DNA from: Aphanocapsa sp. GSE-SYN-MK-11-07L | Lineage (GTDB): Bacteria > Cyanobacteriota > Cyanobacteriia > Thermosynechococcales > Thermosynechococcaceae | Direction: 5' to 3' | Assembly (NCBI GenBank): GCA_019359715.1 | Contig: JAHHGS010000097.1 | Coordinates: 1-48,541, forward strand | Length of the DNA stretch: 48,541 bases | In this document: positions 5,625 through 43,390 of the stretch, piece by piece | Numbering within the stretch: the stretch's first letter is position 1 | Layout: each line of letters opens with the position of its first letter | Translations under genes and position numbers: made by a program | Notes under the pieces: generated by a model | Seen by the model: the letters and a program-made list of their open reading frames with translations, nothing else | What the model was told of the DNA's origin: nothing | Database searches by the model: none

Positions 5625-5798
5625 TGTATTTGTCGCATTTCGATGCAAGTCCTACGCAAAAGACTAGTGTTTTCACTGATGGGGAATCGGTCGGTCGCCT
5701 GCCATCATGTTTTTAGATGAAACGACTTCCCTGTTAGATGACAAACTATCGATGAGGTTTCATCGCCCATCGATTTCTGCTCAACACCGGGGGGTGGG

Positions 5799-5834
5799 TG
5801 TGGGCAATTCTGTTCGCAGAATCACCTGCCCGCA
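5799..5834 (+). other. Folded element with UUCG-capped hairpin
   Basis: An 8-bp stem (5799-5806 with 5827-5834, one G-T pair), a four-base 3' bulge (CACC), then a 6-bp stem (5807-5812 with 5817-5822) closed by TTCG. A T-run follows at 5845-5849. It may be a transcription terminator for the upstream gene or part of a small structured RNA. No gene overlaps it convincingly. Confidence 0.5.
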
Positions 5835-5918
5835 TCTCCTCCCTTTTTCGTATGATTCCCTAATAAGTACAATTTTTACTGTTCCCTTTTTTATTGTGCT
5901 CTTTTAAGTGTTCCCTGT

Positions 5919-5973
5919 GCCTGGCTCAATGTGTGTTTAAGATCCCTGATTTCGCCTGGCTCAATGTGTGTTT
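5919..5973 (+). repeat. Two 20-bp direct repeats, 35 bp apart (start to start)
   Basis: GCCTGGCTCAATGTGTGTTT is present exactly at 5919-5938 and again at 5954-5973. Each copy is preceded within about 10 bases by CCCTG. They lie about 145 bp upstream of the molybdopterin oxidoreductase start. They could be binding sites for an activator, or the scar of a small duplication. Confidence 0.7.
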
Positions 5974-6082
5974 GGATAACTGAAAACTTAATTTAAGCAA
6001 ACGTCTGGAGATTGATTCCGGGGGGCAAGATTGACCAAGAGTTTTGACTTAAAGCATTTTCAGAACCGTTGATTTTAATTAG

Positions 6083-6112
6083 ATTGGGATAGTGCGATCG
6101 CTCTATCCCAAT
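6083..6112 (+). promoter_or_regulatory. Hairpin plus T-rich tail directly abutting a start codon
   Basis: ATTGGGATAG (6083-6092) pairs perfectly with CTATCCCAAT (6103-6112) around a 10-base loop containing a HIP1 octamer. The sequence TTTTCTT follows, then the ATG at 6119. It looks like an intrinsic terminator or attenuator placed inside the leader, occupying the place where a ribosome binding site would be. Confidence 0.6.
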
Positions 6113-6118
6113 TTTCTT

Positions 6119-6934
6119 ATGACCGATGATTCTTCGCCTGACTCAATTGGCTCTAAATCAATTGATCTCGATCCGGTTAATTCCGATCCGGTTAATCCCG
6201 ATCCCAGCCATCAAGCCGATTCAGTTGTCAGTCGGCGGCGTTTTTTACAAGTGGCTCAGATTGGTGGGGCTGGGGCAGTCCTGGCAGGCTGTGCCCCAGG
6301 TGGTCTAGAAGCAGTCATCCATCAAGTCTGGCAACCTGTGAATCAAACCGTCGGTGAGCTGATTTTTGACCCTCAAAAACTAGCACCAGAATTTCCTGAG
6401 AGTGCGATTCAGCCGCAGGCCCTGCTAACCAACGATAGTCAAACCAACCGAGGATTACAAACACCCCTGCTAGATCCGCAAACCTACCGCTTAGAAATTA
6501 CTGGCGATGTTGCCCACCCCCAAATCTTGAGCCTGGCTCAACTGCAAGCTCTGCCCGTCAAAACGATGACGATTCGCCATGTTTGTGTGGAAGGATGGGC
6601 AGCCGTTGTCCAGTGGACAGGCCTACCGCTCCAGGCGATCGCCCAGTTAGTCCAACCCCAGGCAAGCGTTCGCTACGTCTACTTCGTCTCGGCGGATGGC
6701 TACTACGAAAGTTGGGACTTAGCCTCGGCTCTGCATCCCCAAACCTTGCTGGCTTACAGGATGAATGGTGGTTTGTTACCGCGAGAAAACGGTGCGCCAA
6801 TTCGTCTGGCTTCACCGATCAAGTTGGGCTACAAGCTCAGCAAGTGGGTCGTTGCCCTAGCGTTTTTGAGCAATTTACCGCACCGCCAAGGCTACTGGGA
6901 AGACCAAGGCTACGAATGGTATGCCGGGCTTTAA
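6119..6934 (+). CDS. Tat-exported molybdopterin-dependent oxidoreductase (sulfite-oxidase superfamily)
   Basis: A 271-aa enzyme from the ATG at 6119; a GTG at 6092 in the same frame lies inside a hairpin and is less likely. The N-terminal region has a twin-arginine motif (SRRRFLQVAQIGGAG) followed by a lipobox-like LAGC, implying export of folded protein, perhaps as a lipoprotein. The oxidoreductase domain has IRHVCVEGWAAVVQWTG, whose Cys is the expected molybdenum ligand, then the family's YYESWDL and PIRLASPIKLGYK segments. Related proteins include YedY/MsrP-like and SorA-like enzymes. The substrate cannot be read from sequence. No heme subunit is adjacent. The leader hairpin suggests conditional expression. 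Confidence 0.87.
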   Translation: MTDDSSPDSIGSKSIDLDPVNSDPVNPDPSHQADSVVSRRRFLQVAQIGGAGAVLAGCAPGGLEAVIHQVWQPVNQTVGELIFDPQKLAPEFPESAIQPQALLTNDSQTNRGLQTPLLDPQTYRLEITGDVAHPQILSLAQLQALPVKTMTIRHVCVEGWAAVVQWTGLPLQAIAQLVQPQASVRYVYFVSADGYYESWDLASALHPQTLLAYRMNGGLLPRENGAPIRLASPIKLGYKLSKWVVALAFLSNLPHRQGYWEDQGYEWYAGL

Positions 6935-39615: not shown

Positions 39616-40905
39616 CTAAAATATAAAGATCAGTTTCAGCGACCAGTCCGGCGATCGCCGGACTTCAATCCGATTTAAAAACTCACGAAAATAAAATCGC
39701 CGCTCGGCTTCCGACAAGTCGTACCAAAACTGCGGGATCGAGATTGTCTGAGCAATTTGGCGCAGATTGGGCGGTGGCAGTTGGGCACGTTGGCTCTCTA
39801 ACGCCGCAATTTCTGTCCGGAGCTGATAGGTTCGCAGGGCGGCGGTCTCCGAATCGAGCACACCGTTGGCAATCAGATCCGGCAGTTGCTCGATCACCTC
39901 GGCTTTAGCCGCGATTGTACTGGTGAGTCCCGTCTGAATTTGGCTCATCATCGGTAGATTGACCGCGGCGATCGCCGATGGCAATTCTTGACAAATTTGC
40001 TCGATTGTTTGGTTTAAAACCGCCGCGTAAGGGATGGCCCGACATTTTGGTTTGGCAGCACAGTCTGTCGGCCGAAGATAAAGATACTCCTGCACTCGAC
40101 GAGGCGCTGTTACCCGCGCAATCGTCATGGAGGACTGACAGGCGGCGCAAACCACTAAACCGGCTAGCGATCGGGGGGCGCTGGCGGAGCGAGAGGGCAA
40201 ACTGCGGTTGCGCCGGAGTAACCGATCCACTTGGGCTGCTTCTTCGCGGTCAATAATTGCTGGGTGAGTATCGCGCAGAATTTGCTGATTTCGGTAGACT
40301 AAATCTCCCCGATAAACCGGATGGGTTAACCAACGCCGTCCGGTCGCCACAGAAATCTGCTTGCCGTGTTTTTTCTCCAGGTAGCGCACTGATCCCCGCA
40401 GTGATCCATAAAGTAAAAAGTGCTCAAAAAAGTCCTTCACAATCGCTGCTGCTGCCCGGTCGATTACGTAGCGATCTTTGCCGCGCCGATAGCCGTAGGC
40501 GGTTTTACCGGGAGGGGGTAGGGCTTTCAACCGCTTACGGGCATGTCCGCGCCGAATTTGGCGGCTCCGCTGTTGCGCTTGCACGCTTTGGAACATCTCT
40601 AGGTCAGAGTCTGGGCAATCTCCTGTCGTTCCATTTTCTTCTTCCAGGGTAAATATATGAACACCTAAGGCTTTGAGCTGAGCTAAGCGATCGCTAACTT
40701 GAGCAACAGATTCTCCCAATTCCTCAAACCGTCTGAGCAGCAAATAGGCGACAGGTTCGTGCTGGCAGTCTTGCAGCAGTTGTTGAAGCTGAGGACGGCG
40801 CTCGTCTAAGTCCTGGTAGACGCGGTTGATCTCCCAGCCCCAAATTGCCGGATCGAGGGGTGACTCGAACATTGGGTCACTGTAGCTGTAGGCAATGATA
40901 TTCAA
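39616..40905 (-). CDS. Large serine recombinase-like protein with degenerate catalytic domain
   Basis: A 429-aa protein, TTG start at 40905. The C-terminal two thirds are a normal large serine recombinase: a recombinase domain (KTAYGYRRGKDRYVIDRAAAAIVKDFFEHF, VATGRRWLTHPVYRGDLVY), a zinc ribbon (VVCAACQ, then TDCAAKPKC) and a helical region. The N-terminal resolvase domain keeps the DERRPQLQQLL block. However, the YxRVS catalytic serine/arginine motif is replaced by AYSYSDP, and the arginine helix reads RRFEELGESVAQ instead of DRLxR. It is therefore probably unable to cut DNA. I recall similar proteins in other cyanobacteria, so this may be a conserved non-catalytic family. It is divergent from tRNA-Lys. 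Confidence 0.85.
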   Translation of the reverse strand: MNIIAYSYSDPMFESPLDPAIWGWEINRVYQDLDERRPQLQQLLQDCQHEPVAYLLLRRFEELGESVAQVSDRLAQLKALGVHIFTLEEENGTTGDCPDSDLEMFQSVQAQQRSRQIRRGHARKRLKALPPPGKTAYGYRRGKDRYVIDRAAAAIVKDFFEHFLLYGSLRGSVRYLEKKHGKQISVATGRRWLTHPVYRGDLVYRNQQILRDTHPAIIDREEAAQVDRLLRRNRSLPSRSASAPRSLAGLVVCAACQSSMTIARVTAPRRVQEYLYLRPTDCAAKPKCRAIPYAAVLNQTIEQICQELPSAIAAVNLPMMSQIQTGLTSTIAAKAEVIEQLPDLIANGVLDSETAALRTYQLRTEIAALESQRAQLPPPNLRQIAQTISIPQFWYDLSEAERRFYFREFLNRIEVRRSPDWSLKLIFIF

Positions 40906-40983: not shown

Positions 40984-41055
40984 GGGTCGCTAACTCAACG
41001 GTAGAGTACTCGGCTTTTAACCGATTAGTTCCGGGTTCGAATCCCGGGCGACCCA
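40984..41055 (+). tRNA. trnK-UUU: tRNA-Lys (anticodon TTT)
   Basis: A 72-nt cloverleaf. The acceptor arms GGGTCGC (40984-40990) and GCGACCC (41048-41054) pair fully, with discriminator A at 41055. The anticodon loop is CTTTTAA (41014-41020), giving TTT. The T arm has CCGGG/CCCGG around TTCGAAT. The 3' CCA is not encoded. The first pair of the anticodon stem is a C-T mismatch. A damaged copy of its 3' half lies 565 bp downstream. Confidence 0.96.
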
Positions 41056-41096
41056 TTCCTAGAGTCAACCAGAGTTACCAGTAGTCAAGATCGTAG

Positions 41097-41285
41097 ATGC
41101 CTAGTGTAGAACAAGCCCTGCAAACGATTCAGGTGTGTCACTGGCTATCGAACTGCTATCTAGACATTCACCTTTTTCGGTATGACAGCAAGCGAGAAGA
41201 AATTTATGTTTTGGCTGGCGACAACATCGGCATCACAATTTTTTCCAATGGTACATGGGAGTTTGATTATGAGCCTGAAACCTGA
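41097..41285 (+). CDS. DUF6888-like small protein
   Basis: A 62-aa protein: MPSVEQALQTIQVCHWLSN, then YLDIHLFRYDSKREEIYVLAGDN and IGITIFSNGTWEFDYEPET. It matches my recollection of DUF6888, a short cyanobacterial family of unknown function. It has a beta-rich C-terminal half with two aromatic strands. It overlaps the next gene by 17 nt, so the two are translationally coupled. It lies between tRNA-Lys and a decayed tRNA fragment, suggesting carriage on a small integrated segment. Confidence 0.75.
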   Translation: MPSVEQALQTIQVCHWLSNCYLDIHLFRYDSKREEIYVLAGDNIGITIFSNGTWEFDYEPET

Positions 41286-41484
41286 CCTAGAACAAATGAC
41301 TCGCAAAGCTTTGAGGGCCTACGTTCTCTCCCACCGAGATGATGAAGAGGCCTTACGCTTCTACATTGATCGACTACACACCGATCCGGATGTCATTAGA
41401 CACACTGGCAGTTTTAATCAACAGGGAACCACTCAGCTTGAGCACCTGATTCAGCAACAAGCCCAGCGAACCATAGACGAGTGA
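41269..41484 (+). CDS. DUF6887-like small protein, coupled partner
   Basis: A 71-aa protein starting at the ATG at 41269 (the longer frame to 41182 only covers the upstream gene). MTRKALRAYVLSHRDDEEALRFYIDRLH matches my recollection of DUF6887, whose hallmark is LRAYVLxHRxDxEAFxxYxDR. The remainder is polar (FNQQGTTQLEHLIQQQ). This family is normally found paired with DUF6888, in this order. A toxin-antitoxin or regulatory pair is one idea; nothing in the sequence proves it. Confidence 0.78.
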   Translation: MSLKPDLEQMTRKALRAYVLSHRDDEEALRFYIDRLHTDPDVIRHTGSFNQQGTTQLEHLIQQQAQRTIDE

Positions 41485-41578
41485 TCAGGCTTGAAATAGG
41501 TATAGAACTATGTGCAAAATATAGACCTTATCTTTTGGCTCCTTTTCCAGTAACTGCTTCAGCCGATAAGCTAATCGC

Positions 41579-41634
41579 CTTTTAACCGATTAGTTTTAGT
41601 TTCGAATCCCGGGCGACCCATTTCTAGAATTAAC
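41579..41634 (+). pseudogene. Decayed duplicate of the tRNA-Lys 3' half
   Basis: These 56 bases align with 41014-41069 at 49 positions by my reading. Identity covers the anticodon loop CTTTTAA, the 3' acceptor strand, and 14 bases of flanking DNA beyond the tRNA. Six of the seven differences are C-to-T or G-to-A. The T stem cannot form (TTAGT faces CCCGG), and no 5' half is present. It looks like an attachment-site duplicate or the scar of a segmental duplication. Confidence 0.85.
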
Positions 41635-41855: not shown

Positions 41856-41896
41856 AGCTTTACTAGCATCAATGAGTAACATTGGGAGCAGAAAGC

Positions 41897-43390
41897 GTGA
41901 CAGCAGTTTTAGCCCAAACAGGTGCGTCCACTGATATTGCCGCCTATGTCAAAAGCGATGGCCGAGCCGAACTGGTGCAGCAGGTGCGGGGTAAAATTAA
42001 CGACCTCGGCATTCAATACATTTATTACCAATTTATTTCGGTCACGGGTCGGATTGTTGGTAAAGGCGTTCCGGCTGACCATTGGGAAGCGATTTCTGAA
42101 AAAGGGATTCAACTGGTTTACGGCTCAACCGCTAACTTAGCCATGGATCGGCACCGCAACTACATTGGCTATGGCCCAGAAGCGGCGGAATTAGTTGCCA
42201 TCCCAGACCCGGAAACCTTTGTTCAACTGCCTTGGGACAAGCGAGTGGCGCGGGTGTTTTGCACCTGCTTTCGCAACCGCGAAGAACCTGTTGATCCAGG
42301 CGCCTACCTCACCTCGGACTGTCGGGGCAACCTGAAGCGGATTCACGCCCAGTTTCAGCAAGATCATAACGGGCTGCACCTGCGCCACGGCTGCGAACCA
42401 GAAATGATGTGGCTGAAGCGAGATCCTGACGGCAAACCAGCCGGAGGGGTGACGAAGCCCAACTGCTACCACATTGATCAGTTTGAAGAACTGCGCCCGG
42501 TGTTCTTGAAGGTGATTGAATACTCTCGTGCGATGGGGCTAGACATGATTCAGGGCGACCACGAAGATGCGCCGGGGCAGTTGGAATTGAATTTCACGTT
42601 TGACGATGCCCTGCGCACCAGCGATCGCCTCGTTACCTATCGGCAAATTTGTGCTCAGGTGGCCCGTGAGTTCAACCTGATTGCCTGCTTTATGTCGAAG
42701 CCATTCATGGGCGTTTCAGCTTCTGGCTGTCACCACAATTTGTCGCTCTGGTTCGGCGGCAGTGACACCGTTAATGAATTAGGAGCAGAATCCCTGCCAG
42801 GCATGTCTGGTGCTTTCGCCTATCGCAAAGGCGGTGAGAATACCTTCTTACCCGTCGATTCTGAAAAACCTGGGCCAATTGGCTTGAACTGCATTGGCGG
42901 TGTGATTGAGCATTTAGGGGCACTGACGGCGATCGGCTCTTCTACCGTTAATTCCTACCGTCGCCTTTGGGATACCGGACTTTGGGCCCCTGTGTATGCT
43001 GACTGGGGCTACCAAAACCGCACCTGTGGTCTGCGCGTCTCGGCCCCCGGTCGGTTTGAGTATCGAGCCGTTGATTCAATGGTCAACCCCTATCTAATGG
43101 CAGCCGGGCTGCTAAAGGCGTTTGATGATGGGATCAAGCGCAAACTGGATCCTGGTGAGCCGGAACAGCGCAACATCTATGAAGCGATGGAATCTGGCAA
43201 AACAGTTAAGAAATTGCCAATGTCCCTCGGCGAAGCCCTCGATCGCCTGGCCGCCGATGAAGTAATTAAGTCTGCCATGCCGGGCGAAATGTATCAGGTC
43301 TATAGCTGGTACAAACGAGATGAGTGGGAGCGGTTCTTAGCCACTACCACCAATTGGGATTTGGAAACTTATTTAGATTGCTTACCGTAA
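41897..43390 (+). CDS. Glutamine synthetase family protein (gamma-glutamyl-amide ligase-like)
   Basis: A protein of 497 aa from the GTG at 41897, preferred because GGGAGC lies upstream; TTG 41882 is in frame but weakly placed. The type I GS core is visible: HEDAPGQLELNFTF (metal-binding glutamates), FMSKPFMGVSASGCHHNLSLW, and NRTCGLRVSAPGRFEYRAVDSMVNPYLMAAGLL (ATP/glutamate contacts). Compared with GlnA the flanking sequence differs, so it could be glutamine synthetase-like, or a gamma-glutamyl-amine ligase. It is followed 47 nt later by a glutamine amidotransferase. The upstream NtcA-type site suggests nitrogen control. Confidence 0.88.
   Translation: MTAVLAQTGASTDIAAYVKSDGRAELVQQVRGKINDLGIQYIYYQFISVTGRIVGKGVPADHWEAISEKGIQLVYGSTANLAMDRHRNYIGYGPEAAELVAIPDPETFVQLPWDKRVARVFCTCFRNREEPVDPGAYLTSDCRGNLKRIHAQFQQDHNGLHLRHGCEPEMMWLKRDPDGKPAGGVTKPNCYHIDQFEELRPVFLKVIEYSRAMGLDMIQGDHEDAPGQLELNFTFDDALRTSDRLVTYRQICAQVAREFNLIACFMSKPFMGVSASGCHHNLSLWFGGSDTVNELGAESLPGMSGAFAYRKGGENTFLPVDSEKPGPIGLNCIGGVIEHLGALTAIGSSTVNSYRRLWDTGLWAPVYADWGYQNRTCGLRVSAPGRFEYRAVDSMVNPYLMAAGLLKAFDDGIKRKLDPGEPEQRNIYEAMESGKTVKKLPMSLGEALDRLAADEVIKSAMPGEMYQVYSWYKRDEWERFLATTTNWDLETYLDCLP

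Follow-up and report, generated by a model that had tools for sequence, protein, structure and literature searches.

A 523-bp islet with a DUF6888/DUF6887 gene pair at a cyanobacterial tRNA-Lys gene: a probable integrase-less relic of a tRNA-targeting element

The tycheposons of marine picocyanobacteria are tRNA-targeted cyanobacterial elements which possess tyrosine recombinases. The genomic islands collected by Islander (PMC4383910) comprise an intact tRNA gene and, downstream and in the same orientation, a fragment reaching the tRNA 3' end, which is not part of a full tRNA and begins at a crossover subsite; an integrase gene is located between the two copies and the islands measure 2-200 kb. 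Of the two classes in the Islander count, the anticodon subsite (class A) is the more frequent, with 2083 of the 3919 islands. Cis-mobilizable elements (CIMEs), as defined in PMC5704250, have kept attL and attR, while integration and transfer genes are lost; such elements derive from an ICE/IME and are mobilisable in cis. A locus comparable to these systems was identified in a stretch of 48,541 nt from Aphanocapsa sp. GSE-SYN-MK-11-07L (contig JAHHGS010000097.1), hereafter called the window. Its tRNA-Lys gene is intact and is followed in the same orientation by a fragment which extends to the tRNA 3' end, has its edge at the crossover subsite and does not belong to a second full tRNA, since ARAGORN revealed one tRNA. 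Unlike Islander islands, the copies enclose no integrase gene, and the distance from the end of tRNA-Lys to the fragment is only 523 bp. As in a CIME, putative attL and attR sites, identified as such by geometry only, are retained and genes for integration and transfer are missing.

The single tRNA gene of the window, tRNA-Lys with the anticodon UUU, is located at positions 40984-41055 on the plus strand (ARAGORN, Rfam); its sequence is identical in several relatives. A core of 56 nt (41014-41069) recurs at 41579-41634 with 49 identical positions and a constant offset of 565. By a repeat search, the direct repeat was extended to 63 nt (86% identity), resulting in an attL-like copy at 41007-41069 and an attR-like, decayed copy at 41572-41634, both of which lie on the plus strand, start within the 5' strand of the anticodon stem and include 14 nt beyond the tRNA. 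Within this flank, 11 of the 14 bases match (P about 6e-5); from 41621 on, it reads TTTCTAGAATTAACGCTTGC... From tRNA-Lys to the copy, four C-to-T, two G-to-A and one G-to-T differences were counted, and the predominance of the first two kinds (six of seven) is the pattern expected once selection no longer acts on a sequence. Apart from the copy, no place in the window matched the 56-mer better than 29/56. Best matches in 20 windows simulated by a Markov-1 model ranged from 27 to 31/56, which confirms the repeat with seven, mostly C-to-T or G-to-A, differences described by the original prediction. When the 5.1 Mb of the whole genome were searched with a probe of 24 nt, allowing three mismatches, only two places were detected, tRNA-Lys and its copy.

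Between the copies, Pfam recognised only DUF6888 and DUF6887, as had been claimed before (E 2e-25 and 4e-19). The DUF6888 protein (62 aa, 41097-41285, plus strand) matches PF21828 with an E value of 2.3e-25 and 88.6 bits, compared to a curated cut-off of 27 bits. DUF6887 (71 aa, 41269-41484, plus strand) matches PF21826 with an E value of 4.3e-19 on 41275-41484 and 69 bits versus a cut-off of 24.2 bits. Both genes are intact; the ATG of DUF6887 at 41269, a start codon read from the sequence, overlaps DUF6888 by 17 nt. In the 41-nt leader between tRNA-Lys and DUF6888 (41056-41096), a search did not reveal any promoter-like or terminator-like site, and thus read-through from the tRNA promoter may be possible. 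The right arm of the islet (41485-41578), presumably an attP arm, has no relative in 390 cyanobacterial genomes. In these genomes the islet ends were not matched either, nor did they match the arms of the other tRNA elements of the same genome, and no close relative with a larger element was found.

We assign a probability of about 0.72 to the reading that the islet is a CIME-like relic, bounded by attL and attR and devoid of an integrase, which goes back to the insertion of an element into tRNA-Lys by a tyrosine recombinase and in which the gene pair was kept. Strand exchange would have taken place in the anticodon loop. The attP site of the element would have brought a tRNA-Lys 3' half together with 14 bases, by which the tRNA was rebuilt on the left, while the displaced 3' half of the host, now on the right, would have been freed from selection and decayed. 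A later loss of the integrase and of any transfer genes, presumably by deletion, would have left the 523-bp unit. Its remaining cargo, the translationally coupled genes DUF6888 and DUF6887, is probably read from the tRNA promoter and may have persisted because it was under selection, possibly as an addiction module. The repeat geometry, the sampled relatives without a fragment, the intact and constrained genes and the recurrence at other tRNAs were all directly observed. What counts against a relic is that the islet contains neither an integrase gene nor any other gene of an element. The original prediction had left it at either a very small element or the remnant of a larger one. The remnant is now favoured, and the small element is kept as a rival. 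The pair recurs in tRNA islets, and tyrosine integrases that target tRNAs are numerous in the genome.

DUF6887 accompanies DUF6888 in all 80 cyanobacterial loci sampled. Among them, the nearest relative of the window pair is located in genome G017, likewise in a tRNA islet, with amino acid identities of 74% and 67%. Between the two pairs, pN amounts to 0.13 and 0.18 and pS to 0.84 and 0.89, synonymous sites being near saturation; these low pN values relative to pS indicate that both frames are under purifying selection. AlphaFold2 predicted a helix and a four-stranded sheet for DUF6888 (mean pLDDT 92) and three helices for DUF6887 (mean pLDDT 85). Fold searches with both proteins against the PDB did not yield a confident match, none having an E value below 0.2. 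DUF6888 showed a weak partial likeness (E about 0.7) to one domain of the toxin RnlA, which was not counted as evidence. PADLOC and NCBIfam gave no hit naming a toxin-antitoxin family for the pair. The pair, of which coupling and co-occurrence were observed, might be an addiction (toxin-antitoxin-like) module. DUF6888 was absent from the phages and viral contigs searched, and three distant copies were detected on plasmids. In the open library searched, no paper naming DUF6887 or DUF6888 was found.

The same kind of pair was detected beside fragments of other tRNAs, a search for which the original prediction had proposed: at tRNA-Leu (genome G106), at tRNA-Thr (G017) and, in divergent form, at tRNA-Arg. 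At tRNA-Leu, the pair lies 78 bp downstream of the tRNA, and behind it comes a decayed 3' half of tRNA-Leu, the two repeats being spaced by 601. At tRNA-Thr, a copy of the 3' half (97.6% identity) located 1577 bp downstream encloses the pair together with what is left of other small genes. The genome of the window itself (G000) contains a second islet of this type on contig C139, in which a decayed copy of tRNA-Arg(UCU) about 670 bp on encloses overlapping frames of 63 and 70 residues (L211, G000:C139:95000-112000, 5798-6590, minus strand). The first frame resembles DUF6888 by hhalign (P 2.5e-5 in a single comparison), its Pfam E value of 0.054 being below the cut-off, and the second frame alone was not significant by hhalign. 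Within the fetched loci, whatever else the two frames matched by tblastn was a DUF6888 or DUF6887 gene. Judged by these similarities, the two frames are a divergent DUF6888/DUF6887-like pair. No other gene was recognised in the tRNA-Lys, tRNA-Leu and tRNA-Arg islets.

Integration at a tRNA is not the usual context of the pair. Of the DUF6888 loci that were sampled (some 115), about 110 lie outside tRNA islets. With 38 further loci, none of which showed a tRNA islet, about 3 of 115 standard pairs lie inside one. Direct repeats around the pairs scored 17 or more at 7 of 79 loci, compared to 0.6% of random intervals. Of the high-scoring loci, only those of the window and of tRNA-Leu look like integrations, and perhaps L138, in which a fragment is located close to the 3' end of a gene; the tRNA-Thr case of G017 came from a separate search and not from these scores. 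Flanking repeats at four other loci were rejected as signs of integration. That of L126 is a duplicated neighbouring gene and that of L061 a dispersed palindromic repeat, while those of L066 and L078 consist of the end of DUF6887 and are possibly relics of tandem copies. In the latter two loci (L066 4882-5432, L078 4797-5377), a second copy of this 3' end lies upstream of the pair and, in L066, includes 53 nt of flank. Three tandem DUF6888/DUF6887 pairs are present in L095 (G107:C90, 3913-6615).

Four islets at four tRNAs in three genomes, each with a pair of this type, suggest that the pair is either a minimal mobile unit or has survived the deletion of the rest. Under the first alternative, an islet of 0.5 kb would have been mobilised at about its present size by a tyrosine integrase acting in trans from another tRNA element. 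The genome of the window would offer such enzymes, since it harbors 14 tyrosine-recombinase loci, six of which closely follow a tRNA gene (tRNA-Thr, -Pro, -Ala, -Val, -Arg and -Thr(CGU)). Elements marked by 3' fragments were found at tRNA-Pro and tRNA-Thr. The tRNA-Pro(CGG) element (L308 and L198, G000:C107:5037-22850) comprises 17.7 kb and ends in a 97.6% copy of the tRNA 3' half; a tyrosine integrase gene is located near its left end, and DUF6887, preceded by a small gene (SEWLRRVITEAAEREL), near its right end. Behind the copy, the left-arm sequence occurs once more, which suggests tandem accretion. The tRNA-Thr element (L176, G000:C116, 7423-16549) encodes an integrase, a DUF927 protein and a terminase small subunit and resembles a phage satellite. 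The end with the 3' fragment is apparently located on another contig (L177, G000:C105, 11461-11516).

Further points in favor of a mobile unit of minimal size are the similar dimensions of the islets at tRNA-Lys, tRNA-Arg (both G000) and tRNA-Leu (G106), which hold nothing but a small gene pair, and the existence of 0.5-3.5 kb islets without a recognised integrase at tRNA-Thr, -Val and -Ala in the family. Such islets are frequent in the family, and those of 0.5-2.2 kb occur at tRNA-Thr, -Val, -Ala and -Tyr in G003, G008, G010, G013 and G016. Several family islets have a common left arm (TTGGTTGGGGAACC...GGCTTTTGGGAGTTCCAGACAACTTCTGAAGG) and right end (TACCCCGnnnnnTACCCCGCT..TTTATTGATAATGCTCAAAAGC). 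The left arm is also present on integrase-bearing elements at tRNA-Pro, tRNA-Thr and tRNA-Ala of the window's genome, the right end at its tRNA-Pro and tRNA-Thr fragments. In five of the small islets (L188, L196, L197, L201 and L205 from G010, G013, G003 and G008; 0.5-2.2 kb), several of which possess the conserved ends, a small gene with a 16-letter motif was noticed; some contain coiled-coil, DUF29 or Uma2 genes, and no integrase was recognised in them. The tRNA-Lys islet, by contrast, is not a member of this shared-arm family: nhmmer gave no hit for the left arm and only a 3-bit match on the wrong strand for the right end. Since it lacks the shared arms and its ends are unmatched in 390 genomes, it probably stems from another integrase type. 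Another copy with these ends occurs neither in its own genome nor in the 390 others. As the attR copy has decayed, the islet can probably not move at present. Mobilisation in trans at the present size is thus unlikely, though of the competing explanations it fares best. It is equally doubtful, if conceivable, that cyanobacteria harbor a whole class of recombinase-less micro-elements of about 0.5 kb, composed of tRNA att arms and a coupled pair of 60-70-residue proteins (DUF6888/DUF6887 or similar) and inserted by the integrases of larger resident elements. If true, few integrative units that carry genes would be as small. Viral and phage sources of the islet were considered and rejected: an exact tRNA-Lys 3'-half pattern was absent from the viral contigs searched, and tRNA-Lys matches in phages and plasmids look like ordinary tRNA genes.

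The repeat could also stem from a segmental duplication or a decayed tandem tRNA-Lys which enclosed the pair by chance. It is true that tRNA genes do duplicate, and the tRNA-Arg copy of the same genome is weakly similar to its tRNA along the 5' half (P 0.10), making it the borderline case among eight other tRNA islets tested, in which the 5' half is at background. At tRNA-Lys, however, the 3' half is 88% identical to the copy, while the 5' half could not be detected in the 30 bases upstream of the copy by two tests (P 0.72 and 0.30), and a duplication of the full tRNA was rejected on this result. The similarity begins at the anticodon stem/loop, where 4 of 6 bases of the 5' stem strand match (2 to 6 of 6 in the eight other islets), and ends 14 bases past the tRNA 3' end. 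A duplication has no reason to end at this edge, which is also seen in the other islets, and it does not account for the recurrence of the same pair at other tRNA fragments. A duplication is consequently improbable, and integration at the tRNA 3' end, proposed originally alongside it, is clearly favoured by the sharp edge. The geometry of the copy corresponds to that of an att site of a tyrosine integrase with a putative crossover in the anticodon loop.

tRNA-Lys is present in nearly all of 57 relatives searched. At 19 tRNA-Lys loci of relatives, read with several kb of flank (up to 10 kb), no 3' fragment was found. The order XisF-like recombinase, tRNA-Lys and fba is kept in four of these, in genomes from three genera, and these fragment-free loci indicate that the islet is derived in the lineage of the window. 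Two observations named beforehand as speaking against integration, a fragment in relatives and further copies at unrelated genomic sites, were thus not made, the latter by means of the 24-nt probe. The expectation that relatives have a single tRNA-Lys followed by the same flank was borne out for the single, fragment-free tRNA; across such distances, the 14 bases of flank are no longer conserved. Moreover, fba of the window's genome sits on contig C93, away from tRNA-Lys, and a search of 28 family members at E 1e-100 gave no match for the glutamine-synthetase-like gene to the right of the copy. Hence, the right flank is not ancestral, which implies that a rearrangement also took place, and no exact empty-site alignment was seen. 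The glutamine-synthetase-like gene (41882-43390) lies directly right of the islet and is nearest to NCBIfam type III, below the cut-off. On the left, a gene for an XisF-like serine recombinase (39616-40905, minus strand; assignment below the NCBIfam cut-off) lies divergently 78 bp upstream of tRNA-Lys. It is nevertheless most improbable, and was rejected, that this enzyme placed the islet, since its gene lies on the host side, is conserved across cyanobacteria (about 60% identity) without tRNA-Lys nearby, adjoins, divergently, an islet-free tRNA-Lys in six family members and encodes a recombinase of a type other than the tyrosine integrases, the only ones known to target tRNA genes (PMC4383910).

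Both an integrase-less relic and a minimal mobile unit predict addiction or trans-mobilisation for two protein families without known function. As the Islander screen demands an integrase and at least 2 kb, islets like that at tRNA-Lys are invisible to such screens.

Tycheposons, unlike the tRNA-Lys islet, are larger and possess their own recombinase. With Islander islands (PMC4383910) the islet has in common the intact tRNA gene, the 3' fragment in the same orientation and the anticodon subsite (class A), but with 523 bp it is below their minimum of 2 kb and it lacks an integrase. It differs from a CIME (PMC5704250) in holding a single gene pair of 0.4 kb, and its putative parent may have been an ICE/IME or a phage satellite; what it has in common with a CIME is that attL and attR are kept without integration and transfer genes. 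The tRNA-Pro (C107) and tRNA-Thr (C116/C105) elements of its own genome comprise many kb, contain an integrase (C116 also DUF927 and the terminase small subunit) and have conserved arms that are absent from the islet. On the other hand, they use, like the islet, a tRNA 3' half as att site with an edge at the anticodon loop, and the C107 element shares with the islet a DUF6887 gene, located near its right end.
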